From positions 1 to 51,245 of IMG/VR virus record IMGVR_UViG_3300025127_000061: 51,245 nucleotides of DNA, one strand, 5' to 3'. The first letter of the stretch is position 1. Each line of letters opens with the position of its first letter. Source of the DNA: a virus. Position numbers and translations under genes: made by a program. Under the pieces are notes generated by a model. It was not told the DNA's origin. It ran no database searches and saw only the letters and a list, made by a program, of their open reading frames with translations. This document shows positions 1-49,235 of this stretch, in pieces.

Positions 1-44
1 TGGCTGATGAACTCGTCGTTCGTCATGTCTTTGATGTTGTCCAT
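1..44 (-). CDS. Partial hypothetical protein, N-terminus only
   Basis: The start codon and the first 14 codons read MDNIKDMTNDEFIS on the minus strand, and the gene runs off the left edge. The start is supported by the leader cassette just upstream (motif at 56-66, hairpin at 77-137). It begins ATGGACAAC, exactly like the gene at 812-1060, which has the same leader. Nothing can be said about function. Confidence 0.6.
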   Translation of the reverse strand, partial: MDNIKDMTNDEFIS

Positions 45-55
45 TGGTATTGGAT

Positions 56-137
56 TTGAAGTTTGAAAATGTTGTTGAGAGGTGTTGTATATATCTCTCT
101 TCACTACGTTCAGAGAGAGATATATACTAACACTCTC
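56..137 (-). promoter_or_regulatory. Leader cassette 1: hairpin plus TCAAACTTCAA motif
   Basis: Reading the minus strand, a long hairpin comes first. Its inner stem is GTATATATCTCTCT (87-100) with 114-127. Its outer stem is 77-81 and 83-86 with 129-137, with single bulges at 82 and 128. The motif TCAAACTTCAA (56-66) and then the ATG at 44 follow. The same arrangement recurs at 1072-1149 and 2140-2219 with compensatory stem differences. There is no U-tract, so it does not look like a simple terminator. It may be a processing, stability or translation-control element; that role is inferred. Confidence 0.75.
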
Positions 138-283
138 TAAGTAAGGTCGAAGTTGGTGTTCTTGAAGGCTTCTTCGAGGGTAGCCTTGTTGCCCATGTCT
201 GCCTTGAACCACGCCTCGATGAGCGCACGTTCGAAGCTACCGCAGTGTGTCTGTCGGAGGGAAAGTCTTTCGTGTTGTGTCAT
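137..283 (-). CDS. Small early-type hypothetical protein (48 aa)
   Basis: I start the gene at the ATG at 283 (MTQHERLSLRQTHCGSFERA), not at an upstream in-frame ATG at 331. This makes a 4-base ATGA overlap with the stop of the preceding gene (280-504), the junction used repeatedly in this operon. The middle (SFERALIEAWFKADMGNKA) resembles small cytosolic helical proteins common in phage early regions. No domain is recognised. It is the last gene of the operon that begins at 1060; a leader hairpin starts at its stop codon. Confidence 0.7.
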   Translation of the reverse strand: MTQHERLSLRQTHCGSFERALIEAWFKADMGNKATLEEAFKNTNFDLT

Positions 284-504
284 TTCTTGGATGTATTGAT
301 AGTCTTCAATGAGTTGGTTACTCCCCACCATTCGATTTCTTCGTCATGGATTCGGAAGCTGTGTGTGTCCTGTAGTTCGTCGTTCCATACGTTGTCCAAC
401 CACACGCCGTGGTCGTCAGGTGCGCCCTGTACGTAGGAGGCATTGAAGCCTTCTTCTTGCAGTGCCTTGACTGCTGATTCGCATTGTTCTCGTGTTACTT
501 TCAT
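280..504 (-). CDS. Small hypothetical protein (74 aa)
   Basis: This is an acidic, Trp-containing soluble protein starting MKVTREQCESAVKALQEEG. It has no signal peptide or membrane segment. Both ends form ATGA overlaps, with the gene at 501-815 upstream and the gene at 137-283 downstream, so the four genes from 1060 to 137 are probably translationally coupled on one minus-strand mRNA. No family is recognised. A role in early host takeover is only an inference from position and size. Confidence 0.75.
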   Translation of the reverse strand: MKVTREQCESAVKALQEEGFNASYVQGAPDDHGVWLDNVWNDELQDTHSFRIHDEEIEWWGVTNSLKTINTSKK

Positions 505-815
505 AGGTCAATGATTACGCCCTTGGATTCAAGAGCATCGGTGATAAATTCAGGGAGTTCGAAGCATCCGTCGTACCCCGTAAGGCGTACATCTCCGTTG
601 TCATCCCAGTACACTTCGAGGCATCCGCTTGCATAGAAGCGGTCCCCTGCTGTTTCAACGTCGTAGGTTTCGTACCACCCACCCATTCCATGGTTGGGGT
701 CAACCTCGATGGTGGTGTCCATCTCCACATTCGTGGCGCGGTCGATGTCAATGTCCATGGATGTGGTCATAGCTACGTGTGGTAGCGTGGTCTTGAAGTC
801 GTGCTTGAATTTCAT
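501..815 (-). CDS. Hypothetical acidic protein (104 aa)
   Basis: The sequence opens MKFKHDFKTTLPHVAMTTSM and continues with an Asp/Glu-rich, probably beta-rich body (for example GWYETYDVETAGDRFYASG and LEVYWDDNGDVRLTGY). No catalytic motif or transmembrane segment is visible. It is coupled by ATGA to 812-1060 upstream and to 280-504 downstream. The function is unknown. Confidence 0.75.
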   Translation of the reverse strand: MKFKHDFKTTLPHVAMTTSMDIDIDRATNVEMDTTIEVDPNHGMGGWYETYDVETAGDRFYASGCLEVYWDDNGDVRLTGYDGCFELPEFITDALESKGVIIDL

Positions 816-1060
816 GACTTGTTGAGTTTGAAGATGAGGTCGTTGTCTACGTCGTTGGCGTAGCCTTCGAGCAGGTCGATGATGTCCTGAACGTGGTCAG
901 GGTCTGCGTTCGGTGTGTCCGAGAGCAGGGAGGCAAAGCCCTTGACGTCCTTGGGTACAAGTCGGGCCGCTCGGTTGAGCACAGCGAGATTCTTGCCGAA
1001 GTGGAAGTCGTTGAGGAAGAGCACCGCCGCACCGACGGGGCGTTTGAAGAAGTTGTCCAT
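812..1060 (-). CDS. Hypothetical protein (82 aa), first gene of a minus-strand operon
   Basis: The sequence begins MDNFFKRPVGAAVLFLNDFH. The short hydrophobic stretch GAAVLFL is too short for a clear membrane span. The start is fixed by leader cassette 2 (motif at 1072-1082, 11 nt upstream). A competing ATG at the motif itself opens a different frame and is ignored. Its stop overlaps the start of 501-815 as ATGA. No family is recognised. Confidence 0.7.
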   Translation of the reverse strand: MDNFFKRPVGAAVLFLNDFHFGKNLAVLNRAARLVPKDVKGFASLLSDTPNADPDHVQDIIDLLEGYANDVDNDLIFKLNKS

Positions 1061-1071
1061 TGAAATTGGAT

Positions 1072-1149
1072 TTGAAGTTTGACATTGAGAGGTCTTGTAT
1101 ATATTCTCTCTTCACTACGTTCAGAGAGAGAATATATACTAAGACTCTC
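1072..1149 (-). promoter_or_regulatory. Leader cassette 2: hairpin plus TCAAACTTCAA motif
   Basis: The inner stem pairs 1097-1111 with 1125-1139, 15 bp. It is one pair longer than copy 1 because a T and its matching A are both added. The outer stem pairs 1087-1091 and 1093-1096 with 1141-1149, with bulges at 1092 and 1140. Compared with copy 1, one outer G-C pair has become C-G (1094 with 1143). The loop matches copy 1. The motif lies at 1072-1082, directly before the gene starting at 1060. Confidence 0.8.
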
Positions 1150-1239
1150 TTAGGATTGGAGGATTGCCACCACCAAAAGCGTGGCCATCCATGCAAGGAA
1201 CGCGAGGAACGCGATGTTCAAGTTCTTGTTCATGTTCAT
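1150..1239 (-). CDS. 29-aa single-span membrane micropeptide
   Basis: The short frame reads MNMNKNLNIAFLAFLAWMA and then TLLVVAILQS, ending TAA at 1150-1152. A continuous hydrophobic stretch from about residue 9 to 27 makes one transmembrane helix with a short polar N-terminus. It lies 17 nt after the stop of the gene ending at 1257 and before hairpin copy 2, so it is probably the last gene of the operon starting at 1897. An alternative start is ATG 1233. Phage micropeptides of this kind can target membrane processes, but no specific role is visible. Confidence 0.55.
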   Translation of the reverse strand: MNMNKNLNIAFLAFLAWMATLLVVAILQS

Positions 1240-1256
1240 GGTCTTAAGTTACTGAT

Positions 1257-1475
1257 TCAGAGTGGTTTCACCGACTTGATTCGGTAGCAGTCAGGCACAA
1301 GTTCACGTGCCCGCTCTTTCGCATGGTCGAGTGACCATGCCTTGAGCGTCATGTCGTCCCAATCATCTCGGTCAAAGCCGAGGTAGTAGATGACTCTGTA
1401 CTCCTTGGAAGGAGTGGACTGAGGGAGCCAATCGCTCGTCGTGCCCCGCTTGGGGTAGCGTTCCCATACGTTCAT
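1257..1475 (-). CDS. Hypothetical protein (72 aa)
   Basis: I start at ATG 1475 (MNVWERYPKRGTTSDWLPQS) because it forms an ATGA overlap with the upstream gene stop. The longer reading from 1511 lies inside that gene. The protein is mixed-charge and soluble, with a C-terminal segment KERARELVPDCYRIKSV. No recognised domain. It is the second gene of the 1897-1150 operon. Confidence 0.7.
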   Translation of the reverse strand: MNVWERYPKRGTTSDWLPQSTPSKEYRVIYYLGFDRDDWDDMTLKAWSLDHAKERARELVPDCYRIKSVKPL

Positions 1476-1897
1476 GACAGCTTGATTTCGCAGTTGTTCT
1501 TGAAGTCCCAAATGGCCTCCTCTCCGCGCTCTTTACCCAAGGCGATTGCGCTGTCGCGGTCGAAGAGGATGTTTGAAATCTCAATGAAGGCATTGCCTTC
1601 ATCGTTCACCCATGCACCGATTACCTTCACGGTCAGGAAGTCGTCTGCGAACTCCGTTCGCTTGATGAACTCAATTTTCGAGTCCATGATGCGCTTGAAC
1701 TTGTTGAAAGACAAGTCGTCGTTGCACACGGACTGGCATGGAGTCGAGAAGCTTTCAAGCTCAGCTCCGCCCACTGCATAAGCCTCCCGTGTGGGGTTGT
1801 AGCCTTTGAGGTCTTTGTCAACGGAGAATCCGTTGCCGCTTTGTACGTTCATGTAGCGCAGCTCCATGAGTTCAGGATGTGAAAGATTTCTGCTCAT
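1472..1897 (-). CDS. Hypothetical protein (141 aa)
   Basis: The start is taken at ATG 1897 (MSRNLSHPELMELRYMNVQS), which follows motif copy TCAAACTTCAA at 1910-1920. An in-frame start at 1954 would put the motif and a hairpin inside the coding region and is less likely. The C-terminal half (TVKVIGAWVNDEGNAFIEIS) looks beta-rich and the tail is helical. No family is recognised. The coding sequence contains a few small perfect hairpins (for example 1584-1602), fewer than 2228-2797. Confidence 0.7.
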   Translation of the reverse strand: MSRNLSHPELMELRYMNVQSGNGFSVDKDLKGYNPTREAYAVGGAELESFSTPCQSVCNDDLSFNKFKRIMDSKIEFIKRTEFADDFLTVKVIGAWVNDEGNAFIEISNILFDRDSAIALGKERGEEAIWDFKNNCEIKLS

Positions 1898-1909
1898 CTT
1901 TGATGATTT

Positions 1910-1941
1910 TTGAAGTTTGATACTGACACCCCAAGGGGTGT
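1910..1941 (-). promoter_or_regulatory. Leader cassette 3: motif plus a different, shorter hairpin
   Basis: The 11-base motif at 1910-1920 lies 12 nt upstream of ATG 1897. Just before it on the minus strand is a small perfect hairpin, ACACCCC with GGGGTGT around a two-base centre (about 1925-1940). This leader shares the motif but not the long hairpin of copies 1, 2 and 4, so the motif is the constant element. Confidence 0.6.
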
Positions 1942-1982
1942 TTCGCCTATACAAGGCTCATCAGAGTACCTGTGAATTGAGA

Positions 1983-2129
1983 TTACATCTCAATGAGGTC
2001 TTCCATCGTCATCTGCTCAAGGCAGGTGAGTTCGTCCCACTCGGCGGTGGCACGCACTGCGTCGAAGGAAAGGTGAAGGTCGAGGAGGTCAGCAATGAGC
2101 TGACGGCGGGTATCTGCAAATGTCTGCAT
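1983..2129 (-). CDS. Hypothetical protein (48 aa)
   Basis: The frame reads MQTFADTRRQLIADLLDLHL and continues to ...MTMEDLIEM, stop at 1983-1985. It is predicted to be all-helical and acidic at the C-terminus. The start is supported by the motif at 2140-2150, 10 nt upstream. It is flanked by leader cassettes on both sides. No function is recognised; such helical early proteins often bind host proteins, but that is not shown here. Confidence 0.65.
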   Translation of the reverse strand: MQTFADTRRQLIADLLDLHLSFDAVRATAEWDELTCLEQMTMEDLIEM

Positions 2130-2139
2130 GGTGATTGAA

Positions 2140-2219
2140 TTGAAGTTTGAAAAAGGTTTCAAGAGTGTCCAGTGTGTATACTCTCTTCACTCTGTTCAGA
2201 GAGTATACACACGGACTCT
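2140..2219 (-). promoter_or_regulatory. Leader cassette 4: covarying hairpin plus motif
   Basis: The inner stem pairs 2172-2186 with 2198-2212 (15 bp, GTGTGTATACTCTCT on the plus strand). It matches copies 1 and 2 in position and loop (CACT..GTTC) but differs at many stem positions, each change compensated on the other arm. The outer stem pairs 2168-2170 with 2213-2215 and 2162-2165 with 2216-2219. The motif is at 2140-2150. It lies between the gene ending at 2228 and the gene starting at 2129. Confidence 0.8.
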
Positions 2220-2227
2220 CTAAGGGA

Positions 2228-2797
2228 TTAGAGTTCGAAGGGAAGCTCATCGATGCTTACAGCATCGATCGTGGGTGCCTGCTCACCCTGCATCTGCAAG
2301 GCGAGGAGGTTGGTCAGCATCTCAATCTTGTCTTCCAAGGAAGACAAACGTTGAGCTTGAGTTGGCTTCTTCGAAGCCACCTTTGAAGCTTTAGCTTCAA
2401 TGGCTTCAGCCATTGAGTGAGCTTTCAGCTCAGCTTTCTTTGCTGCTCTCTGAGCAGCACCAGTAGCTTCGCTAACTGCTTTGGCCGATGCTGCAGCTTC
2501 CTTAACGGAAGCTGTCTTAGCCTTCTTCGAAGGCTTGATTGGACCAACTTCGTTGGTCTTGAGTGCCGCTCTGTCTTGTCGGTCTGCCACCTTCTGTGAA
2601 GGTGTTCTCTTCGTCGTCTTACGACGACGCTTCTTGCCAGCCTTCTTCGAAGGCTTGTCGGCAACCTCTTCGAGGTTGTTGACGAAGTCCAAAGCTTCTT
2701 GCAGAAGCTTGACAGCCAGAGCTTTACGCTCTGCAGTGGGACGGAAGATGGCTTGGTTGGTTGCCTTACGGCAATCGGAGAAATTGAAGTTTGACAT
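2228..2797 (-). CDS. Lys/Ala-rich histone-like protein with C-terminal coiled coil (189 aa)
   Basis: The N-terminus is MSNFNFSDCRKATNQAIFRP, followed by a helical segment. Residues from about 50 form a strongly basic tract (PSKKAGKKRRRKTTKRTPSQK), then an Ala/Lys/Glu-rich helix resembling histone H1 tails. The C-terminus (LSSLEDKIEMLTNLLALQM) looks like a coiled coil. It could bind nucleic acid; this is inferred from composition only. The start overlaps the motif: TCAAACTTCAA forms codons 2-5. The coding DNA is extraordinary: about 18 small hairpins lie along it (see separate entry), so the nucleic acid itself may be functional. Confidence 0.75.
   Translation of the reverse strand: MSNFNFSDCRKATNQAIFRPTAERKALAVKLLQEALDFVNNLEEVADKPSKKAGKKRRRKTTKRTPSQKVADRQDRAALKTNEVGPIKPSKKAKTASVKEAAASAKAVSEATGAAQRAAKKAELKAHSMAEAIEAKASKVASKKPTQAQRLSSLEDKIEMLTNLLALQMQGEQAPTIDAVSIDELPFEL
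2249..2774 (-). repeat. Array of small perfect hairpins inside a coding sequence
   Basis: At least 14 perfect inverted repeats with stems of 7-9 bp and loops of 2-5 nt lie head to tail. Positions: 2249-2269, 2328-2347, 2363-2379, 2383-2400, 2398-2415, 2441-2459, 2494-2514, 2519-2535, 2542-2558, 2588-2604, 2611-2627, 2639-2655, 2662-2678 and 2692-2710. Weaker ones are at 2273-2288, 2418-2432, 2461-2478, 2717-2733 and 2760-2775. Arms differ in sequence but loops recur: on the minus strand six are C(GAA)G triloops, for example AACCTC-GAA-GAGGTT. By chance about 0.1 such hairpins would be expected over this length at equal base frequencies. Confidence 0.85.
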
Positions 2798-2850
2798 GAG
2801 ATAATGTATTAAATGAAACTCATAGAGTTTCGTTTCATTTAATACATATC
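2784..2850 (-). promoter_or_regulatory. Leader cassette 5: long hairpin before the histone-like gene
   Basis: Arms of 16 bp (ATGTATTAAATGAAAC with its complement ending near 2845) flanked by GAGAT/ATCTC form a stem just upstream of ATG 2797, with one bulged A. Inside it, GAAACTC and GAGTTTC form an alternative 7-bp hairpin that competes with the top of the long stem. The motif TCAAACTTCAA (2784-2794) lies after the start codon here, not before it. Its sequence is unrelated to hairpin copies 1, 2 and 4. Confidence 0.65.
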
Positions 2851-2852
2851 TC

Positions 2853-3205
2853 TAGCAGTTCGTGTCCTCACTACACTACCTTCGGTAGTAGTAGTGGAGT
2901 TGAAAGCTGCTAACACATTGAGAGATAACAAGTTATCTCCGTGCGTTAGCCATCGTGAAGGCCGACCAAATCGGCACCAATGTTTCCCCTAAGAGGGGAA
3001 GGGGTAAGTCGGTTAAGGAGGTTGGGGAGGGATTGTCCCACCCTGCTGGACTGCACGTCCCATCCTGCGGTCCTCCTGCGGTGGTAGAAGTGAAGCTACC
3101 TAACTGACTGAGAGTCAGTAGGTAGGCAAAGCTGAAAGATACAGCGCAACTATCGAAGATAGTTGAGGGGTGGGGTCCGAGAATCTGTTTCGGTCCGTAG
3201 GACCG
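2853..3205 (-). ncRNA. Highly structured noncoding leader or RNA candidate
   Basis: No convincing reading frame is present. The segment is a string of hairpins: 2853-2912 (outer stem enclosing a bulged stem capped CTACC-TTC-GGTAG), 2910-2949 enclosing the perfect 8-bp 2922-2939, 2961-2975, 2984-3000, 3029-3039, 3048-3060, 3096-3125 (13 bp with one bulge), 3131-3145, 3147-3165 (8 bp, GAA loop) and 3191-3205. Minus strand is favoured because it would be the 5' leader of the gene at 2797 and an AT-only tract (3213-3228) suits a promoter at its 5' end. A plus-strand or free RNA is possible. No known RNA family is recognised. Confidence 0.55.
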
Positions 3206-3545
3206 ACCGCTCTATAATATATATAATCCCCACGGTACATGCTACTCCCCTCTTTTTTCGCCGTGATCTTGAGTTTTTGCCTTCAGAACCAATTTCACAC
3301 GAAAACATCTAAGCCTTTCGTTTACAGCAACTTAGAATCCTTGCCTTAAAGCGTCACTAGACTATTGACTTTTCAAAAATTCCTTTATACCTTTACGGAA
3401 TCAAAGCGATTCAGATGAAGAAAGCAGCCAAAGATGGTTTTTTGCGTGTACGCAGATGAATCCTTTACTTTATGGCGCGAGGGTAGTAGTGTTTTAAATG
3501 TAAATACACCCTATGATCAGGCTAAGTCACTAAAAAAAGTCTGGT
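3206..3545. other. Divergent intergenic region
   Basis: The segment between the minus early-type module and the plus late module carries no credible gene. A TA-only run (TATAATATATATAATC, 3213-3228) is a plausible but unproven promoter for the minus strand. A small palindrome (TGCGT-GT-ACGCA, near 3444) is the only other structure noticed. The first late promoter begins at 3546. Confidence 0.5.
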
Positions 3546-3553
3546 TATATTTG
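3546..3553 (+). promoter_or_regulatory. Late promoter, TATATTTG box
   Basis: TATATTTG matches the Bacteroidota -7 consensus TAnnTTTG. The ATG of the next gene is only 5 nt after the G, so transcription should start at or within a few bases of the start codon. No clear -33 element is seen. It begins the late plus-strand operon. Confidence 0.75.
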
Positions 3554-3558
3554 CAGTC

Positions 3559-4170
3559 ATGCAAGTAACCAAGAATTATAAGCGCGGGGGCTTCTTTGGA
3601 AACTCTCAAGACAAGTTCTCAGACATGGAGGAGGCGGGCCAGGGCATAAACATGGCCTTTGCCAACAGAGGTTTCCTCAAAGGCAAGGGGGCTGCTCTCA
3701 GAAGAGAGAAAAGATACCTCAAGAAGCTTGAAAGAGAGGGTAGACTCAATGAGTACGGAACTCAGAGTGCTGACAGGCTCGATTACCTCAGAAACGTCCA
3801 GAAAGACAGAGCAAAGAAAGGCATAGCTGCTGGTGCTTTGGCTGCTGGCTTGGCATTTGGAGGGCCTGCTGCCCTCTCAGCCATTAAGGGTGGAGCCCTC
3901 AAAGGCGGTGCATTAAAAGCTGCAGGAAAGGGAGGGTTGAAGGGTCTTTTCAAGAACGCAGGAAACATTAAAAAAGGCAAGGAGATTTTTGACGCGCTTA
4001 CCCCTGATCAAGAAGCTCAGATAGATAGCGGTAATTTTTACGATGATCCCTCTATGAACCCATTTATGATGGGTGGTAAGATGAAGCTGCTCAAGGGTAA
4101 CGACGGTAAGATGACAGCTGAAGATCTCAAAATGCTTAGAGCTATGCTCGAAGCCAGACTCCCTAGATAA
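3559..4170 (+). CDS. Probable virion-associated protein with glycine/alanine-rich segment (203 aa)
   Basis: The protein has a charged N-terminal half with a Lys/Arg/Glu helix, then a Gly/Ala-rich hydrophobic region (about residues 94-135, GIAAGALAAGLAFGGPAALS). The tail is acidic and then amphipathic. The pattern suits a small internal virion or membrane-interacting protein, but no family is recognised. The start sits directly behind the late promoter. The stop overlaps the next start as TAATGG. Confidence 0.7.
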   Translation: MQVTKNYKRGGFFGNSQDKFSDMEEAGQGINMAFANRGFLKGKGAALRREKRYLKKLEREGRLNEYGTQSADRLDYLRNVQKDRAKKGIAAGALAAGLAFGGPAALSAIKGGALKGGALKAAGKGGLKGLFKNAGNIKKGKEIFDALTPDQEAQIDSGNFYDDPSMNPFMMGGKMKLLKGNDGKMTAEDLKMLRAMLEARLPR

Positions 4171-4598
4171 TGGCAACACTTACAGTAACTATACAGGAGA
4201 GCATCACTCTCAACGGATCTGAAAGAGGATCTACGAACACCATTGATATGACTGGCATCACCCAGTTGGATCAACGTATCGTAAAGGTGGGGACCTCGGA
4301 ACAGTCTTTAATCCTTTTCGATACGGCGGAGGCTGCTGGCCAGTTCGCTGACACCAGCGTAGACTACGTTCGTATCACGAACTTGGACCTCACGAACTTT
4401 GTCACATTGCGTATGACCGCTGGGGACGACGAGTACTTCGTAAAGCTCTCAGCTGGTGATTCCTTTGTATTGTTTGAAACTGTCATGGACACCGATGATG
4501 ACTCTGGCGCAGCTACAGCATCACTGGCTAACATTGACTCTATCAAGGCAGTGGCCAACTCTGCCGATTGTAACGTTGAACTATTTGTAGCAGCATAA
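4170..4598 (+). CDS. Virion surface/decoration-type protein, paralogue family (142 aa)
   Basis: A beta-rich, acidic protein. The segment VDYVRITNLDLTNFVTLRMT aligns by eye with YVRVVSSNATEFATLTFGSQ of 20160-20555 and YVYVRNLSSEKEHIVTLYVG of 20555-20950. All three then have a Gly-Asp/Glu-Phe-hydrophobic turn and a terminal strand. The three are probably paralogues of one small structural family; assignment to capsid or tail is not possible from sequence. Confidence 0.65.
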   Translation: MATLTVTIQESITLNGSERGSTNTIDMTGITQLDQRIVKVGTSEQSLILFDTAEAAGQFADTSVDYVRITNLDLTNFVTLRMTAGDDEYFVKLSAGDSFVLFETVMDTDDDSGAATASLANIDSIKAVANSADCNVELFVAA

Positions 4599-4608
4599 AA
4601 TAATAATC

Positions 4609-4893
4609 ATGAAGCACGCTAAGAAAATGCCAGGCGGCGGCAAAATCGCACAACAAGCCGCTATTGCCATGGCCATGAAAAAGGCTGGTAAGAAACCAAA
4701 GTCTATGAAGAAGGGCGGTAAGTTCCCTGACCTCACTGGTGACGGTAAAGTCACAAAAGCTGATATCTTAAAAGGTAGAGGCGTGAAAGTAAAGGGCAAG
4801 GACGGGATGAAAGTAAAAGGAATCGGCCTCAAGAAAGCCAAAGCTGGCATGAAGTACAAGAGTGCTGGGAAAGGCATGAAGTACGGCAAGTGA
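4609..4893 (+). CDS. Very basic small protein with dockerin-like EF-hand loop (94 aa)
   Basis: The protein is Lys/Gly/Met-rich (MKHAKKMPGGGKIAQQAAIA, later repeats of KVKGKDGMKVKG). In the middle, residues 41-52 (DLTGDGKVTKAD) match a dockerin or EF-hand calcium loop with acidic residues at positions 1, 5 and 12. Small proteins of this composition are common in marine phages and often found in virions; that role is inferred. It follows the gene ending at 4598 after 10 nt. Confidence 0.7.
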   Translation: MKHAKKMPGGGKIAQQAAIAMAMKKAGKKPKSMKKGGKFPDLTGDGKVTKADILKGRGVKVKGKDGMKVKGIGLKKAKAGMKYKSAGKGMKYGK

Positions 4894-5021
4894 GCAAACA
4901 CTACTTCAATCCTATAAGGAAACGAAAGGATCCTGGAGTAGAAAATGAAAAACGCAGACTCAATAATGAAGCTGTCAAAAAATATGTCGCTCGCCGAGGT
5001 GACAAAAAGCAACACGGCTAA
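4890..5021 (+). CDS. Possible small basic protein, GTG start (43 aa)
   Basis: A GTG at 4890 overlaps the previous stop as GTGA. The frame reads SKHYFNPIRKRKDPGVENE and then KRRLNNEAVKKYVARRG to a TAA at 5019-5021. It overlaps the start of the endolysin by about 55-75 nt. The basic composition and coupled start resemble other small genes here, but the overlap and GTG start make it uncertain. Confidence 0.35.
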   Translation: MSKHYFNPIRKRKDPGVENEKRRLNNEAVKKYVARRGDKKQHG

Positions 5022-5445
5022 AAGACTTGGTATAGACAACACACCTGATGACTGGGCCACAGAAAATTTACGAAAGATTGCAGAGCACGTATTTCAACCT
5101 CTTAGGGACGCTTTCGGGTGCCCTATATACGTGTCGAGCGGCTATCGTTCAGCTGAGCTCAACACTGCTATCGGTGGTTCGAGGCGCAGTCAGCATGTGG
5201 AAGGAAGAGCACTCGATTTGGACGCAGACGTATTCGGACGTTGTACAAACGGTGACATCTTCCGCTGGATACTCAACAACCTTACGTTTGATCAGCTCAT
5301 TTGGGAGTTTGGTGATGACGATAATCCTGATTGGGTTCACGTCTCTTTCGTTCATGATGGGGTTAATCGTGGTCGGTGTCTCAAAGCTTGTCGTGATGAT
5401 GAGGGAAAAACTTACTACGAAGTAATATTTGGTAAAGGACTATGA
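4966..5445 (+). CDS. Peptidase M15-type endolysin / D-Ala-D-Ala carboxypeptidase-like
   Basis: The fold is recognised from the ordered motifs SSGYRS, SQHVEGRALDLD and WVHVSF. The zinc ligands would be the His and final catalytic-region Asp of SQHVEGRALD and the His of WVHVSF, all present. Such enzymes cut the peptide part of peptidoglycan, here probably for host lysis. I prefer ATG 4966 (MKLSKNMSLAEVTKSNTAKR), where family proteins usually begin; ATG 4945 adds seven residues. No signal peptide is seen, so release would need a holin such as the one at 46251. Its stop overlaps the next start. Confidence 0.88.
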   Translation: MKLSKNMSLAEVTKSNTAKRLGIDNTPDDWATENLRKIAEHVFQPLRDAFGCPIYVSSGYRSAELNTAIGGSRRSQHVEGRALDLDADVFGRCTNGDIFRWILNNLTFDQLIWEFGDDDNPDWVHVSFVHDGVNRGRCLKACRDDEGKTYYEVIFGKGL

Positions 5446-5891
5446 TAGGACTAGGATTATCTATAGTAGGTGGCGCCGCAGCCGAGGCTTCTAGTCAGGG
5501 GAATAGAAATGCCCCTGCACTTACTACTTGGACTGAAACGTCAGTGGGGGCAGTTACCACCCCTGCAATTACAGTTTCTGGAAATGCTAGGGCGTCACTC
5601 ATTTCTTTGTTTATAGACGAGAGTGCTGACTGGAGCGGAACCCTTGGGGATTACAGCCTCGTAAACGCTTCGGTTATAAACCTCGGAACTTCAAACGGCT
5701 TAACTGGTCAAACATACACTTTCGGTACGGACCTTGGCTCTGTTGGAGATGCAAGGGTCATTTTCACGGCCCCTCAAACATTCAACAACTCGCCCGTAAG
5801 CGCTGGGCCAGGTCAAACAATTAGAGTTACTGGAGACCTGACTCGTTCTGGATACGAAGTAAAATCAATTACAGTAGATCACACTTACTAA
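5442..5891 (+). CDS. Beta-rich virion protein, unknown (149 aa)
   Basis: A short hydrophobic N-terminus (MIGLGLSIVGGAAAEASSQG) is followed by a Thr/Ser/Val-rich beta-strand body typical of phage surface or fibre-base proteins. The N-terminus could be an anchor or a tail-attachment segment. Its start overlaps the endolysin stop (ATGA) and its stop overlaps the next gene (TAATG). No family is recognised. Confidence 0.65.
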   Translation: MIGLGLSIVGGAAAEASSQGNRNAPALTTWTETSVGAVTTPAITVSGNARASLISLFIDESADWSGTLGDYSLVNASVINLGTSNGLTGQTYTFGTDLGSVGDARVIFTAPQTFNNSPVSAGPGQTIRVTGDLTRSGYEVKSITVDHTY

Positions 5892-6031
5892 TGAATCTCT
5901 GGCCTAACCATACATCCTTTAGCTCAGAAGAAATTGTGAGCTTCTGCAAGATGTTTCTTATTGTATTCCCTCAGGAATCATTTTCAGATGAGCATGACTA
6001 CTTTGCCTCATTAAAGGCTCAACACGAATAA
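5891..6031 (+). CDS. Small hypothetical protein (46 aa)
   Basis: The frame reads MNLWPNHTSFSSEEIVSFCK and continues to a TAA at 6029-6031. It is coupled to the preceding gene by TAATG. It is acidic and aromatic, with no membrane segment. No function is recognised. Confidence 0.55.
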   Translation: MNLWPNHTSFSSEEIVSFCKMFLIVFPQESFSDEHDYFASLKAQHE

Positions 6032-8898: not shown

Positions 8899-8972
8899 TG
8901 GGGCGTAGTTCAGTTGGTTAGAGCGTCTGTCTTATACACAGGAAGTCGCGGGTTCAAGTCCCGCCGCCCCAA
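8899..8972 (+). tRNA. tRNA-Ile (anticodon UAU)
   Basis: The cloverleaf folds fully. The acceptor pairs 8899-8905 with 8965-8971 (first pair U-A). The D arm is GTTC/GAGC. The anticodon stem is TCTGT/ACAGG with loop CTTATAC giving UAU. The T arm is GCGGG/CCCGC with TTCAAGT. CCA is not encoded. It reads AUA codons, which occur often in the late genes. Confidence 0.9.
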
Positions 8973-8980
8973 CAATTTAT

Positions 8981-9226: not shown

Positions 9227-9300
9227 GCGCTCGTAGCTCAGTTGGATAGAGCATCTGCCTTCTAAGCAGACGGTCACAGGTTCGAATCCTGTCGGGCGTA
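9227..9300 (+). tRNA. tRNA-Arg (anticodon UCU)
   Basis: The acceptor pairs 9227-9233 with 9293-9299 (two G-U pairs). The D arm is GCTC/GAGC. The anticodon stem is TCTGC/GCAGA with loop CTTCTAA giving UCU. The T arm is ACAGG/CCTGT with TTCGAAT. Discriminator A at 9300; no encoded CCA. It reads AGA, the dominant Arg codon of the late genes by eye. Confidence 0.93.
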
Positions 9301-9314
9301 CTAAATTTAATACA

Positions 9315-37192: not shown

Positions 37193-40100
37193 ATGATTGA
37201 TCAGAACGAAAACAATCCACCCGTAGAGGTTGGGACTACACCACAGCAACCCAATCAGCAAGACCCCACGGCATACGTACCGCCTCATACTCAACAAGAG
37301 TACTTTGATGCGTTTTCTGCTCTAGGCATGACCGACAAGCAGAAGATGAATCTTCTTAACGCGCAGGGCTTCGATCCTGATAGTTCGTACAATATGATTA
37401 TGGACGACTACAATACGAAGCGTGAGGAGATGCTCGCTAACATTGATCGTCTCGAAAAGCTGGAGGAGGAGTCAAAAAAAAAAGAATCGACTTCCGCTTC
37501 TGGGGCAGAAGGATTCGAATCTGGTGGGACTGACTTTGGGGAACAGGCGTTTGGTCAGGACGTTGCGGTTGCTGACCCAAGGAATATACTTCAAGGAGAC
37601 GCTGACGAGAGCCTAATGTCTGCATACGAGTTCTCAAAGAGAGCTCAGGAGTTGAGAGAATTAGCCAGACAAGAGCAGGATCAGGCGAGACAAAACGAAA
37701 TTATGGCGGAGGCTAGAGAGCTGTCCGCCCAAGCTCACGTATTTAACCGAAAAGCCGCTGATTCCATGAATCAGGTGTTCGAGTTCAACGACTCGGACAT
37801 GAGAATCAATGCCGAGAGCGACGTCGATGCCAACTTCATGATGAGGGAGATGGCAAGAAGAGGCTTTGAAGAAGATGCTAGGATAAAGCGAGATTTTGGA
37901 TTTCTCGGCATAGAGAATGAGGCACAGTTTGAGGAGTTTAAGATGCTCGGAGGCTTTGAGACCAATGAGATGGTCGGGATGTTCGGGAGGCAGCTCGATT
38001 ACGACGACATCAAAGAGGGTCAGTGGGATGGATCTACTGGATTAGAAAGACTTTGGGATAACGCATACACCACCTTCGGTGCGGGTGTAACTGGTGCGGC
38101 TGCTGGATTGTCAGATATACTCGGTGGTGTTTTTGGGGTTGACTCAGACGATAACTCTATAGCTAAATACTACAGAGCCAAGACGAATCAGCTTAACATA
38201 AAGAACCAAAACTCAAGAATAAAGGGTATGGAGGAGCTTGGAATATCAAGCGACTACCACAACATGGGAGTTTTGGACACAGCTCAAGCTGCCTTTTCAG
38301 ACTCAACAGCGCTTAAGAAGTTCATTTCTGTAGACCTTCCAGATACCATAGGTATGGTTTTTGGCGAGGCCGCTATATTTATGGGAACCAGAGGCATTGG
38401 TAGAAGTGGCATGCTTGCAGATAGGCTCGCCAGATCTGGAAAAATATTTGGGAAGGGTGCTGAGGCATTAACCGTAGGTCAAAGCATGTTGAGTGCTGGT
38501 GCTCAATCACTTGCACCAACGCTCTTGTCGTATATACCTAGGTCATACGAAGGGTTTAGAGAACGCCACCCTGACTCTCCTCAATCTCAAGCACTGTTCT
38601 TTGGTACACTTGGAGGTGTGGCGGAGGGTATGATGAATGCCTTAATGTTGGGTGCGGGAAGGGGTTCGGTTGCTGCAATTCAGAGGCCATTTAACAAGGC
38701 TGGCACGAGAGCCGCCATACAAAAAGAGGTTAGAAAGGCAGTGGGCCAAAAGAGCGGGAGTCCTTTCCTTGCAGACATGGGGGCAGAGGGCCTTGAGGAA
38801 GGGTTTGTGGCCTACACAGAGCAACTTCTGAACGCGCTCTCTGACGTATCGAACGGAAAGAAGCCCGAAGATTTGAATATGCACGCAGTATTGGATGCTG
38901 CATTTGTGGGACTTCTGGGAGGCTCTGGTCCAGCTACGCTGTCTGCGGCAGCATCTGGAATGAGTCACAGCGGCAACATGAAGCAGGCTCAAAATCGTGC
39001 TGATGTAACTAGAAGGCTGAGGTACGCATACGAGTCTGAAACAGACCCCAAGAAGAAGGCTTTCCTAAGAACTCGATACGCTGAGTCACTTAAGAAGCTG
39101 AAGAATGTTAAGGATAAGGACGTTGCCCTTTACGAGAGCCTTGATCAAAATCAGGTTGATGAGCTGATGGGTGTACACCAGGAGATTGCTCAAATATCTT
39201 CTGATCTTCAGAAAGGAGAATACATCAACGGGGCCAAGATTACGAAGGAGGAAAAAGATGCCATGAAGGGCAGACTTGAATCCTTGTTTACGAGAAAGGC
39301 GGAGATTGAAATGGAGGCTGAGGCAAAGGCCTTCAAAGACAGTGTTCCAGACTCGATCTCTGTCCCTGATGCTGAAAACCAAGACGCTCCTGCAAAGGAG
39401 AGAACTGTCGAGAAGGTAGAGAAGAAGTCTCACGAAAATATACCTGAAGCGCCAGAGGCTGCTCCTGCTGACGTACAGCAGCAAGAGGGACAACTTTCTA
39501 TGTTCGACGAGAACACCATGGATGACATGGTTCAGAGAAAGGAAGACCCTAAGGCTACCGCAGAGTCACCCACCGCTGAGGCTGAGACAACTGACACGGA
39601 AATGGTTTCAGATGAGCCTGCCAAACAAGCAAAGAAAGAAACTGAAACAGCTGAAGAAGCTGAAGTACAGGAGGATGCCTTTGAACTGGATCTTGCCGCT
39701 GGACAAAAGTTTAACCTCAAGGACACCAAGATTGTTGGCGAGGGCGCTGGTCAGGTGCCATTGCAAGTCGCAGCTACGGTAAACCGCATGACAAAGTCGT
39801 TCGGTAAGGCTCTTTCCGCTGCTGGCGCTAAGCTCAAGGCTCACAGAACCATGGAGTCGTTTAACAACATCGACCCCAGAATTAAGCAGCAGAACGGATA
39901 CCTTGAAAAGACTGACGCTGACGGTCAAGTTGTAGCTTACTACAACCCCAAAACCAACGAGATACACCTCAGCCCGCTTGTTGATTCGATGGACGTCATG
40001 GAGGAGTTTGGACACATGGTCCTCAAGCCCATGATTGGTAAAAACGCTGCAGCAAGAGAGGCTCTTTACAAGGAGATGGAGGAGATTGCCAAGGGCAAGT

Positions 40101-43100
40101 CTCTCGGAGCTAGAAACGTTAAGAAAATACTTGCTCAAACCAAGCAAGACTACGGAAACAGACCTATCTCCGAACAACAAGAAGAGGCCATCATTAGTGT
40201 GCTCGTAAACTACGCTAATGACTCATCTAGCTTCAAGGGGGTAGAGAACAGAATCATTAAGGCAATCAACAAGATTGCAAAGTCCTTTGGATTCAAGAAG
40301 AACATCATCTCTGGTAAGGAGGGGCTGTTCAAGCTTGCCGAGAAGTTTAAGGAAGCCTCAGAGGGCGTAGAGACAGAGGTGGCCGTAGAAGACGCCCCAA
40401 CTGCAGAAGCACCTGCTGCTGAGGAAGCGCCTGCTGCTGAAGAAGCTCCAGCGCAAGAGGAGGCGACTCAGGAGAAAGAGCCAGTCTCGAAGAAGCGAGT
40501 TGCTTTGGATCAAGACAAGACCGACAGGTTCTATAACAGAATACTTAGCAACATAAAGGGTCTCGCGTCAAATGCTGACATCGACGTTATGGACACTGCT
40601 AACTCGGAGCCAGCACCGAGAGATGGAAACGTAAGGGCTGGAAGAACGCTTAGGGGACTTATGATGCGCGGCGAAAGAATTTTCGCTGAATACGAAAACG
40701 ACATAACGGCTCAGGAGCTTGCCAGTGGTGAGCGAGAAGAAGGCATCTTCTATTACGACGGGGTTCACGGGCGTAAAACAGGACCAACTGGCAAGATAAC
40801 AGGGCCTAAGTTTCAGAAGAGAAACTGGGAGACGGCTAACCACGGCCCAGATGTCACCCCAGGCATGATCGGTGGATACCAAGTGACCACAAAATCTGAC
40901 GGCAAGGGTGGCTACGTATACGAGGTGTTTATGGCTTCGGATGCAGATGGAAAGATGGGTCAAAAAATGGCCACTAGCAGCACGGTTGTGGTTGTCCCTA
41001 GCACATCAGAAAACAACTTTGACGGATCAAGAACTGGAAGTCTAGAGCAGTTCCAAGAAGCTGTTAGGAGGGAAAAAGCAGAAAGAGATAAGATTTTTGC
41101 AGACCCAAAGTCTACAAGTAAGGCCAAACGAGGCGCGAACCTAAAACTTCAGGAAATCGAAGCCGCTAGGGATGTTGTTCTTCAGGTTCAAGAAACCATC
41201 AAGAACCCATCTAAAGCCGCTGAAGGAAGAAAGAAGATAGAGGACCACGCCAACGAAGTAGCAAGAAGAGTTTCTAGAATCTTGGGGCCTGACACAAGGT
41301 TTGAGTCTGAATATGCTGCGGCCACCACTAGCTTTAACTTGAGGCCACCTACAACTGATCAGAAGGTTGAGGCCTTTTTGACGTTCTTGAACAAATCATC
41401 ATTCTGGGGATGGGGAGAGGGCAAGAACCTTGGAGACCGTCCCCATGCTGGAGACGTTCTGAGAAAAGAACTTGCGAAGGAAATTGAGGCTGAAAGGTCA
41501 AAGGACGTTGGAACTGTCGCGCAGGAGATAGATGCAGACGAAACCCTCAATAAAGAGCAAAAGCAAAAATCTCTTGAGGAGATAACTACGGAGCTCTTGG
41601 GTGATACCGAGGGCATATCTACGCCAGAGGGTGATGCACTTGATCAAGCGGAAGACATCGGCGCGATGGAGGGTCGCATGTCTATTAGAAGAAAGAAGGA
41701 GTTCGATTACCTGAAGGACACTGAAATTTTCTACGAGAGTCACCCATATCTCTCGCCTGGTCAGAGTCAGATTGTTAGCGGAAGATACACCTCATTTAGA
41801 GTCGATAGATCTATCAAAGTAAACGACTACTTTCACTTCAGAAACTGGTACAACAAGACTACGGGCAACCAAAGAGCCGACAGGATTCAAAACATGTACT
41901 TCATTAAGGACGGAAAGAAGTACAAGGTGAAGCCGCCACGTCCGAAGGTTGACAAAAATGGCAAGCCAGTGTATATGGAGGTCCCATTGACGCCTCAGCA
42001 AAGAAGGCGTCAAGAAGGCTTCGAGAGACAGGATGAAGCTATGGATCTCAGAAAGCAGGCAGCTGCGATAAGAGACGAAAGCAGAGTTTTGCTCAGACAA
42101 CTGCCTTGGCGAGGATTTGTAAACGGAGCGGTGTTTGAGCCTGGAGAGAGGCTTACCGTAGAGGGCGGAAGAGTCTCTGCTGATGTGGACTACAGGCTTG
42201 CAGTTATAGGCAAGAAGAACCTTGAGGCTGCCCTTCAGATGGGGCTTACCAAGGAGGATATACAGAAGCGGTTTGATGATAGTGGAAGGACGCTTCGTTA
42301 CCTGAGTAGATCACAAGATGGAGACCTTGTCAATGCCTCTGGTCTTAAGCTCGCGGATGACGCAGGAGACGGAGACAACGTTGGTATGTTTTCTGTTCGG
42401 TCTCAGTTAGAACTGGAAAAGGCAAAGACTCCGTTCAAGGCGATCACAGATTCAGTCAGGAGCTTCTTCGGAAAGACAGAGGAAGGTAGCATTGACGACC
42501 TTATGGATGTGTTCACCATTGTCATGGGTTATGACAGAACAGGAAAGAGAAGGCAAGGCATCACATCTGGGATTGTGGCGCTCCTTGGGCTTGAGGATCA
42601 GGACGTTGTGTCAACACACGTTGACGTGGCTACGGCACAAAAAATAGTGACAAGGTTTAAGAACAACGCTATAGCACAATACAAAAAGACAAAGAAGACT
42701 TCTGGAGAGTTTGCTATAGGTTTCTCTAGTCTTGATCCAAACGCAACCCTTGGCAACCCAGATGTATTCATCCAATACATGGAGGGGGTGAAGAAACTGG
42801 TTGAAAGCGGGGAAATAAGTCCAACTGAGTTTTTGTCAAACAGAACTGGCATTGGACTAAGTGCAACTTCAATTCCTAGCTTGAGGTACGCACTGCAGCA
42901 GGAGGCAAATAACGGCAACGCGACAGCGGCAGCTGTTCTTAACGACATCATCCTTGACGTTGATGGATCTGTCAAGTATTTTGTTCGAGAGGATGTGATG
43001 ACAAAAGATCATGTGTTGACGATGATTGACGCATTGAGCAAGCATCACAAAAACTTCCCAGATTCATTTAGCTCAAGAAAGAAAATGTTTTCAGCTAACC

Positions 43101-46695: not shown

Positions 46696-46827
46696 ATGGA
46701 AGAGGACTTCGACGACATCAGCTTTTTGGATCAAGACAAACTCAAGGAGCAAGAGAAGAAGATTGAAGACGGTGAAATCACCTGCAACATTGACAATCCA
46801 GAAGATTGCGAGTCATGCAGCGGCTGA
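46696..46827 (+). CDS. Small acidic Cys-containing protein (43 aa)
   Basis: Reads MEEDFDDISFLDQDKLKEQE, then KKIEDGEITCNIDNPEDCES, then CSG. It is very acidic with three Cys in the last 14 residues and has no signal peptide. It starts 1 nt after the holin stop and overlaps the exported-protein start by 13 nt. The function is unknown; it could bind metal. Confidence 0.6.
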   Translation: MEEDFDDISFLDQDKLKEQEKKIEDGEITCNIDNPEDCESCSG

Positions 46828-49235
46828 TATCCGTGCTTTTTCTTTTACCTTTTTTTGCATCGGCACAGATAGGTTGGGTAAATCTTGAGTTTCAGACCGA
46901 CGGATACGGAGGAGAGAGCACTTGGGAAATTTACATGGTCGGCTCTGACAGCGTTTACGCTGCAGGTGGCCCATACCCAAACAACTCATACAATCAACAG
47001 CTAGTAACTATACCAGCAGGGGAGTACAACCTCGTGGTAAATGATGCTTTTGGAGACGGTATATGCTGTGAATTTGGTGAGGGGTGGTTTGGTGTTGAAA
47101 ACACCTGTGGCACAAGCACATACGTTTACGATTTTGCTGCGGCTCAAATCACGGTTCCTTTTAACGTCTTGCCCTGTCCTCCCCCAGTTTACGGCTGCAT
47201 GGACGCAGAGGCAAACAACTATGACCCACAAGCGTACTTCGACGGCAACAACTGTCTATATGACGTTACGTTCAGGCTGGATCTTAATGGACCGCATCCG
47301 CCTGAGATAGACATTCCAGAGGTAAACTCATCAGCGAACGCATGGTGCGGAAGTTGCTGGGCCATGTCTGATGAAGACGGAAATGGGGTTTGGGATTTGA
47401 CGGTAGAGATGCCAGAGGGTCAACACCTTTGGAAGTTCTCTGCAGACGAGTGGGAGGTTCAGGAGTTGCCAGTAGGCGTTTCTGAATCTCCTTGTTTTTT
47501 GTTCGATGAGTTTGGATATGTAAACAGAACCATCAACGTGCAGAGTCACATGGTACTGCCTCCCTTTTGTTGGGAAAGCTGCCTACCATGCGGAGCTGTC
47601 CCTGGTTGCACCAATCCCAACGCAGATAACTGGAGTCCTTGGGCAAACTTTGACAACGGATCATGCACTGGCCTCGGAGCTGACTGTCAGCCATGGGAAA
47701 CAGAAATCACCACCGTTCTTATTTTGGATAACTACCCAGAAGAGACCGCGTTTAATGTTTACAATGTTACGTCAGGAGAACAGCTCTTGGATGTTTCTAT
47801 CGGAAACATATCGGAGTCAATCATTGGGGTTCCGTTTGCGTTCCCTACGTGCGTCACGACTGGAGATGTAGTCGAGGTAGAGATATCTGACAGCTACGGT
47901 GACGGCCTTGGAGCTTCTCAGTGGGGCGGTCAAGACGGAGACGTATTTGTGATCGCTTGTGGAGACACTTTGTGGGAACTGCCTGAGCCTGACTTCGGAT
48001 ACAGCGTGTTCACGGAGTTTACTGCGCCTCTATGTCTTGATGTTGAAGATGTTGTTGGCTGTGGCAATCCAGACTACATAGAATACAACCCCGACGCCAC
48101 TATATTTCTAGAAGCTCTGTGTCAAACCCCAGTCGTTTTTGGGTGCACAGATGACTCATATTTTAACTACGACTCGCTGGCAAACACAGATGATGCAGTA
48201 GATTCTTGCTTCTACACACTGACCATTACTGACGGGGTGGGCGATGGGTGGTTTGGTAGCTGGCTTGGCATCTATCAAGATGGGTGGACATCTCCACAAT
48301 ACAAGATGGGGCCAAACGACGGAACAGAGGAGTCCTTTGACGTGTATCTGTCATCAGAAGAGGAGATAGAGCTGTTCTTCTTTACAACCCCTCAGTCTCA
48401 GAACCAAGTCGATCAATGCGGCTTCATGCTCGTAGGTCCTACGGGCGACACTCTTATTGACATTTCGCAGTGGAATGTGACTCCGTTTCCAAACACATAC
48501 ACAACGACACCTTACTGCGGTAACAGCTGCGTTCCTTTTGTGTACGGATGCACAGATGAGACTGCACAGAACTACATGGAGAGTGCTAACGCAGAGGACA
48601 ACAGTTGTTATTACAGTGCTGGCTGCACCCAGGCGGGATACCTGGAATACTACACACAAGGGTACGATGCCGATTACGATGACGGAAGCTGCATCACACT
48701 GGCTGTATTTGGGTGCACCGACCCTGACGCCTTGAACTACGATCCTGAAGCCAACGTAGACATAGACTCATGCGTCCCTGTGATTGAGGGCTGCATGGAC
48801 ATTGACGCATATAACTACAATGAAGAGGCCAACACGTCTACAGACGACTGCGTGTACGACGCTGGATGCGTGACTGGGCCTGGGTCACCATACTGGGCCA
48901 ACGACTACTGCTACTCTTGGGTGATCGAGGTTGACCCATACTGCTGTGAGACAGCATGGGATGCGGTATGTGAAGAGATGTACGACTACTGCGGAGAGGG
49001 TGTGACATCTGTAGAGACAATGGTGAGGTCAGCGCTTCATTTCTTTCCAAACCCAACATCAGGGCTGGTAAACATTCAGGCCCCTATAGGGACGATAATT
49101 ACGTTGTTTGACGCAAGAGGTAGAGTTGTTGAAACAACCACGGGCAGCACGGTTGAGCTCCCCTCTCCTGGGCCGTATGTAATCATGGCTAACTACAAAG
49201 GCAGAATTAAAAGAGAAACAGTCATAAAGCAATGA
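46815..49235 (+). CDS. Secreted Cys-rich repeat protein with T9SS type A sorting domain
   Basis: 806 aa from ATG 46815 (MQRLISVLFLLPFFASAQ is a clear Sec signal peptide). Two or three beta domains carry aromatic GDGxxC-type loops (NDAFGDGICCEFGEGWFG). At least eight short Cys repeats then follow, such as GCTDPDALNYDPEANVDIDS and GCTDETAQNYMESANAEDNS, with Asp/Asn spacing that would suit calcium. The last ~70 residues (FFPNPTSGLVNIQ, then ITLFDARGRVVETT) are the C-terminal sorting domain read by the type IX secretion system. The product should be exported across the host outer membrane. It is coupled to the barrel gene downstream (ATGA). Confidence 0.88.
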   Translation: MQRLISVLFLLPFFASAQIGWVNLEFQTDGYGGESTWEIYMVGSDSVYAAGGPYPNNSYNQQLVTIPAGEYNLVVNDAFGDGICCEFGEGWFGVENTCGTSTYVYDFAAAQITVPFNVLPCPPPVYGCMDAEANNYDPQAYFDGNNCLYDVTFRLDLNGPHPPEIDIPEVNSSANAWCGSCWAMSDEDGNGVWDLTVEMPEGQHLWKFSADEWEVQELPVGVSESPCFLFDEFGYVNRTINVQSHMVLPPFCWESCLPCGAVPGCTNPNADNWSPWANFDNGSCTGLGADCQPWETEITTVLILDNYPEETAFNVYNVTSGEQLLDVSIGNISESIIGVPFAFPTCVTTGDVVEVEISDSYGDGLGASQWGGQDGDVFVIACGDTLWELPEPDFGYSVFTEFTAPLCLDVEDVVGCGNPDYIEYNPDATIFLEALCQTPVVFGCTDDSYFNYDSLANTDDAVDSCFYTLTITDGVGDGWFGSWLGIYQDGWTSPQYKMGPNDGTEESFDVYLSSEEEIELFFFTTPQSQNQVDQCGFMLVGPTGDTLIDISQWNVTPFPNTYTTTPYCGNSCVPFVYGCTDETAQNYMESANAEDNSCYYSAGCTQAGYLEYYTQGYDADYDDGSCITLAVFGCTDPDALNYDPEANVDIDSCVPVIEGCMDIDAYNYNEEANTSTDDCVYDAGCVTGPGSPYWANDYCYSWVIEVDPYCCETAWDAVCEEMYDYCGEGVTSVETMVRSALHFFPNPTSGLVNIQAPIGTIITLFDARGRVVETTTGSTVELPSPGPYVIMANYKGRIKRETVIKQ

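Follow-up and report, generated by a model that had tools for sequence, protein, structure and literature searches.

The window analysed here is the whole of a 51,245-base virus record (IMGVR_UViG_3300025127_000061), to which unqualified coordinates refer. On its minus strand, at 2228..2797, lies a gene for a basic, mainly helical protein of 189 amino acids that matches no known family. It is preceded by an untranslated leader of about 416 nt (2798..3213, minus strand), whose hairpins keep a conserved register, as judged from pair counts and fold z-scores, and by a conserved promoter-like box, GTGGGGATTATAT (3221..3233, minus strand), which marks where the hairpin domain begins and has its only exact match in the window here. 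Together with part of the genes that follow, leader and coding gene form a domain of ~2 kb with about 27 small perfect hairpins, at a density of 14.1 per kb over 1300-3213 vs 0.39 per kb in the rest of the window. The original prediction had placed this region at 2228-3205; it is real but wider, extending over about 1320-3206 in the window.

Terminase and portal families were detected in the window. By terminase the nearest relatives are an uncultured podovirus (48% identity), the Flavobacterium elemo phages (41%) and Cellulophaga phages (35-37%); judged from these relatives, the virus probably infects Bacteroidetes. A protein search with the 189-aa product returned 15 relatives (with the window, 16 first loci), and a profile search returned 73 loci, those 15 included; the hairpin-bearing viruses are a marine family, and the cellular genomes searched contain no homologue of the protein. 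Directly ahead of the terminase, the window encodes tRNA-Ile (anticodon tat, 8899-8973) and tRNA-Arg (tct, 9227-9301). At 46806-49235 a phage-encoded protein has a weak Por_Secre_tail match, a type IX secretion sorting signal, and in genome G002 (L020 13173-16087) an M43 peptidase adjoins a CHU_C domain protein, with type IX secretion sorting signals.

Architecture of the hairpin domain

The box occupies the same place in 16/16 first loci and in most of the 73 loci from the profile search. The first hairpins lie 24-73 nt downstream of it in 16/16 loci, and the next hairpins keep their spacing while their arms differ. Nearest the box in the window is TCGGTCC-GTA-GGACCGA (3190..3206), with a C(GTA)G core, followed by 'hairpin 2', CAACTATC-GAA-GATAGTTG (3147..3165), which stands +67..73 from the box in 16/16 loci, again with differing arms. 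Further into the leader are the perfect inverted repeats ACTGACT-GAG-AGTCAGT (3103..3119) and TTCCCCT-AAG-AGGGGAA (2984..3000), then GAGATAAC-AA-GTTATCTC (2922..2939), nested within an outer stem, and ACTACC-TTC-GGTAGT (2874..2888), at which relatives have the loops GAA, TTC, AAG and CTT. Just ahead of the start codon is a long bulged stem with 16-bp outer arms, ATGTATTAAATGAAAC (2804..2847), which covaries in both leader clades. The estimate of about ten further hairpins in the leader was generous: there are six with arms of at least 7 bp, one 6-bp hairpin and the bulged 16-bp stem.

Within the gene, from its start towards its end, a perfect inverted repeat with an arm of 8 and a loop of 3 (2692..2710) is followed by a series in which CAACCTC-TTC-GAGGTTG (2662..2678), AGCCTTC-TTC-GAAGGCT (2639..2655 and again 2519..2535) and GACCAAC-TTC-GTTGGTC (2542..2558) each read C(GAA)G on the minus strand. 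Interspersed among these are CGTCGTC-TTAC-GACGACG (2611..2629), which forms in two registers, and the perfect repeat CACCTTC-TGT-GAAGGTG (2588..2604). The inverted repeats CAGCTTCC-TTAAC-GGAAGCTG (2494..2514) and TGCTGCTC-TCT-GAGCAGCA (2441..2459) lead to a lineage-specific segment that most relatives lack, and which holds TCAATGGCT-TC-AGCCATTGA (2397..2416), TTGAAGCT-TT-AGCTTCAA (2383..2400) and TGGCTTC-TTC-GAAGCCA (2363..2379); TTGTCTTCC-AA-GGAAGACAA (2328..2347) and ATCGATGCT-TAC-AGCATCGAT (2249..2269) complete the gene. The motif GCGAAGC, which had been pointed out on the minus strand, is present there once (2466-2472). Beyond the gene a thinner tail (1321..1994) carries six perfect inverted repeats over the next small leftward genes, at 1321-1340, 1400-1415, 1584-1602, 1819-1835, 1926-1941 and 1976-1994.

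Four long relatives are arranged likewise, with one single hairpin cluster each. Averaged over the 16 loci, hairpin density per 200 nt is ~2 from -600 to 0, 5-5.6 from 0 to 400, 3 up to 600, about 1.2 up to 1400 and about 0.1 outside, so that the domain has sharp limits. Perfect stems of 15-16 bp exist elsewhere in the operon. Among intergenic stem-loops, those with a 14-15 bp stem at 87-127, 1097-1139 and 2172-2212 of the window, and at 38361-38403 and 40334-40374 of G002, share a related loop of 11-13 nt (sense CTGAACGTAGTGA in most), then TCAAACTTCAA before an early gene; they look like a repeated regulatory or processing element of the early operon.

The protein itself had been described as histone-like, a label to be dropped, as family and fold searches give it no support: there is no Pfam or PHROG match, and no OB-fold or histone/HU domain was recognised. 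The structure predicted by AlphaFold is helical, its confidence is modest (mean pLDDT 70) and it has no match in the PDB. The C-terminus (2231..2251, minus strand) reads DELPFEL, and several relatives end in DELPF, DGLPF, DQLPF or DVPF; the SSB protein of E. coli ends in the tip DDDIPF, which these termini resemble, a likeness of sequence and nothing further. A second early protein with an SSB-like tip (EDALPF) and no Pfam match is encoded at 7333-7635 of L020.

Excess over shuffled controls and a standard unit

With arms of at least 7 bp and loops of 2-5 nt, the gene (2228-2797) contains 15 perfect inverted repeats, and the original prediction of at least 14 even understated the case. Lowering the arm threshold to at least 6 bp gives 17, covering 50% of the gene, compared to means of 0.78 in dinucleotide shuffles (maximum 5), 0.54 in codon-order shuffles (maximum 3) and 1.73 in synonymous-codon shuffles (maximum 6). 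Synonymous shuffling preserves both the protein and codon usage, and was repeated 300 times per locus; for arms of at least 7 bp it yields 0.83 hairpins (maximum 4) vs the 15 real ones. The excess therefore stays at about 18-fold, although the earlier expectation of ~0.1 hairpins was too low. For none of the 16 first loci was the real count reached in any of the 300 synonymous shuffles. Chance and amino-acid repetition are ruled out as the source of the hairpins by the dinucleotide, codon-order and synonymous shuffles; that repetition is not the explanation had been argued from loops falling at different codon phases, and all three phases are indeed occupied, unevenly (164/123/34 in 47 loci).

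The hairpins approach a standard unit, with arms of 7 (6-8) bp and a loop of 3 nt, or 2 nt. In genes, for 3-nt loops, arms of 5-10 bp number 36, 46, 94, 18, 9 and 1 respectively, giving a mode at 7 and a cutoff at 9, whereas arm lengths in control DNA fall monotonically with no peak at 7; loop length peaks at 3, with 2 next. The loop-closing pair is 5'C-G3' in 64-65% of hairpins vs 23% in the control, GNA loops, counted on either strand, reach 44-58% vs 9%, and C(GNA)G cores on either strand, which are not universal, account for 30-34% vs 1%. A C-G closing pair, a G..A loop of 3 nt and a short stem are also the rule for hairpin extrusion from DNA in the promoters of phage N4 (PMC4496689), and it is mainly because loop and closing-pair statistics match this rule that we favour duplex DNA able to extrude cruciforms. 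The DNA nearest-neighbour parameters of ViennaRNA do not reproduce the observed closing-pair preference, so the argument from the closing pair rests on the N4 experiments. The suggestion of a single-stranded DNA element, with GCGAAGC as a stable mini-hairpin, pointed in the right direction to the extent that closing-pair and loop statistics follow the rules of DNA hairpins.

Conservation, covariation and strand symmetry

All 15 of the first relatives share the excess, with 8-15 hairpins in the gene and 4-8 upstream; among them, too, shuffled versions lack the real hairpin count and pairing is kept between homologues, and the observation is confirmed as real, stronger than first stated, conserved and unusual. 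In the six closest leaders, all 426 of 426 cells from 71 pairs are paired and none is broken; double changes number 21 vs 2 single-sided ones, and shuffles of the same leaders give 6.4 double-change cells vs the 21 observed. Leader arms covary. Arms in the gene also change in step, sometimes altering amino acids, as where S-N-E-V-G becomes A-N-E-V-S around AAC-GAA-GTT, and new gene hairpins sit in segments without counterpart in most relatives. Retention of the pattern while the letters change points to an unrecognised role or to a mutational process acting on the DNA itself.

The pattern has also been lost. The gene of L065 is free of hairpins (fold z -1.4), those of L052 and L079 have weak ones, and in a distant clade (L087, L088, L093-L095, L102 and L104) the leader is unstructured, with the box and mostly the leader length kept. 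Because some relatives have lost gene or leader hairpins, the array is not strictly essential, and any function it may have would be dispensable or lineage-specific. The hairpin-free leader of L095 is rich in alternating purine-pyrimidine runs (CGCACGCATG...), a pattern prone to non-B-DNA.

Folding compared with controls on both strands, as had been suggested, is strong and nearly equal, with z about -7 (leaders -7.3 and -7.0, genes -7.0 and -6.4), the sense strand folding slightly more strongly than the antisense in most genes. Counted over distinct 7-bp stems with loops of 3-4 nt, perfect stems number 123 in leaders and 86 in genes, those with a single internal G-U 8 and 4, and those with a single internal A-C 8 and 6, respectively. 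Such mismatches occur near control rates, with G-U not exceeding A-C, and each pair of arms is either perfect or broken. Loops of the noncoding leader are strand-symmetric (TTC 18/GAA 11, CTT 9/AAG 8, GTA 8/TAC 7), a symmetry that would be explained by a cruciform, since this bears a hairpin on each strand.

Matching hairpins have reverse-complemented loops in 19 cases vs 9.2 expected (p 0.0005), or 18 vs 8.3 for 7-nt arms (p 0.00025); the sequences are related and not independent, making these p-values approximate guides only. L040, which bears an apparent inverted second copy, was left out of the test, and the outcome was unchanged. One leader hairpin has the loop GAA, TTC, AAG or CTT across six close relatives. 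Arm homogenisation together with spacer inversion is the footprint of template switching (PMC8604942, PMC8794818).

A proposed DNA hairpin array and its rivals

Our best explanation of the whole, to which we give a probability of about 0.5, is a DNA hairpin array that follows an early box, is subject to template switching and is put to torsional use. Its first part is fairly probable: pairing would act or arise in DNA, and switching between arms during replication would restore perfect pairing and flip loops. As in N4, negative supercoiling of the DNA might then make the hairpins extrude, and with gyrase supercoiling the injected genome, the head of the early operon could become a zone that absorbs or senses torsion; about 27 extruded units of 17 nt would remove roughly 40 supercoils (17/10.5 each), an arithmetical figure which assumes that all extrude. 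Alternatively, the array could be used as a platform for a hairpin-binding protein. That the tiled gene and leader constitute a new cis-element, whether torsional sink, torsional sensor or hairpin-protein platform, controlling the early operon, and kept up by template switching evolved for its maintenance, is a tentative proposal that we hold with considerable doubt.

Nearly as likely as the preferred torsional zone is a mutational by-product: a non-adaptive hotspot at which template switching makes and perfects hairpins, a low-complexity protein tolerates them and the array has no function, transcription or fork stalling near a strong early promoter perhaps driving the switching. All-or-none pairing and loop inversions are what such a process would leave, hairpins do lie within lineage-specific inserts and are lost in several relatives, and a parallel argument has been made for the palindromes of nematomorph mitochondria (PMC6649704). 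However, selection is suggested by the uniform arm length, which has a sharp upper bound, by the C(GNA)G cores and by box-relative positions that stay fixed over deep divergence, and a hotspot leaves unexplained why 2 kb alone should be affected when perfect stems of 15-16 bp occur elsewhere in the operon. A structured RNA, in which hairpins of the early transcript guard against nucleases, regulate translation or serve as binding sites for the encoded basic protein, is slightly less likely again. The domain does begin just past a promoter-like box, the leader covaries and its nested, bulged stems resemble folded RNA, folding is strong with a small sense-strand bias in the gene, and some RNA loops, too, prefer a C-G closing pair; yet selection on an RNA fold alone is argued against by near-equal z on the two strands, pairing that is all-or-none and shows no G-U preference, symmetric leader loops, loop inversions and loops of 2-3 nt. 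Nor do positions 1-6000 of the window match any Rfam family significantly. The structural or decoy RNA and the protein-bound RNA scaffold that had been offered as roles are accordingly not favoured; the leader may have an RNA role in addition.

We consider improbable a zone of replication start or priming, where exposed single strands fold into origin-type hairpins, possibly bound by the protein with the SSB-like tip. Such a zone would suit the junction of leftward and rightward operons, the AT-rich stretch at the box, the C-terminal tip itself and two genes of G002 located about 7-12 kb downstream, for a DnaA-type HTH protein and a DnaB-type helicase; against it, no iterons were recognised and the GC skew of G002 keeps its sign at the domain, changing about 7 kb away. 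A bidirectional origin located by GC skew was rejected on the lack of a switch at the hairpin domain of G002. Least probable is that the hairpins serve a virion RNA polymerase as N4-type promoters. Hairpin geometry and the C(GNA)G rule are alike (PMC4496689) and a giant 3027-aa protein is encoded, but a scan of the giant proteins with simple motif patterns gives no sign of an RNA polymerase, though a distant one is conceivable, and these proteins match only LPD38 and families of unknown function, with no PDB match. Moreover, the hairpins far outnumber what promoters would need, lie inside a gene and have no conserved flanking sequence.

The array is filed under no known structural family because it lacks a defining feature of each family tested; by analogy, it would work like N4 hairpin extrusion and evolve like template-switch palindromes. 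Early promoter hairpins of N4 share its short stem, 3-nt loop, C-G closing pair and G..A loop (PMC4496689), but are few and are read by a virion RNA polymerase, whereas here about 27 hairpins lie in a transcribed region and no polymerase was found. Coding palindromes of Nematomorpha mitochondria, for which a non-adaptive origin has been suggested and maintenance by template switching proposed, are likewise perfect inverted repeats in coding genes, all-or-none and subject to gains and losses (PMC6649704); their arms, however, reach 284 bp and are scattered over genes, compared to units of 7 bp tiled in 2 kb, and only here are there a register with one box, a rule for closing pair and loop, and an extension into a noncoding leader. 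Template-switch mutations likewise homogenise arms, invert spacers and produce compensatory double changes that lack intermediates (PMC8794818, PMC8604942), but have been described as occurring sporadically, in rRNA, microRNA or yeast genes, and not as a dense array. Genome-scale ordered RNA structure (GORS) of RNA viruses also pairs pervasively through coding sequence, unlike the single 2-kb, strand-symmetric domain of perfect Watson-Crick pairs in this DNA virus.

The locus is a natural case in which DNA hairpin structure and protein sequence are co-written and kept over deep divergence, and it makes testable whether perfect inverted repeats persist through selected structure or through rewriting by template switching; covariation by itself is no proof of RNA structure. 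It also suggests that hairpin extrusion driven by supercoiling, known from N4 promoters, may be far more widespread in phages. Dozens of relatives, some without gene or leader hairpins, provide a ready comparative system.

No such cluster is present in the scanned stretches of those isolated phages that were checked for having a related terminase, namely an elemo phage, Cellulophaga phi19:3 and phi40:1, and MW202828. The last of these, MW202828 (L032 43745-47668), has a single palindrome, GTGTCGTTAACGACAC, in nine copies across its early operon, which is probably an operator. The locus is differently arranged in L105, L106, L107 and L109, and in L105 consists of two adjacent related genes, with hairpins reaching further upstream. 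Among the 73 relative contigs (L038-L110), 24 break off downstream of the gene start within 1.4 kb, in some cases inside the gene, compared to one upstream; library preparation or assembly may fail at the hairpins, or a genome terminus may lie nearby, and selection of contigs by hallmark gene may add to the effect.
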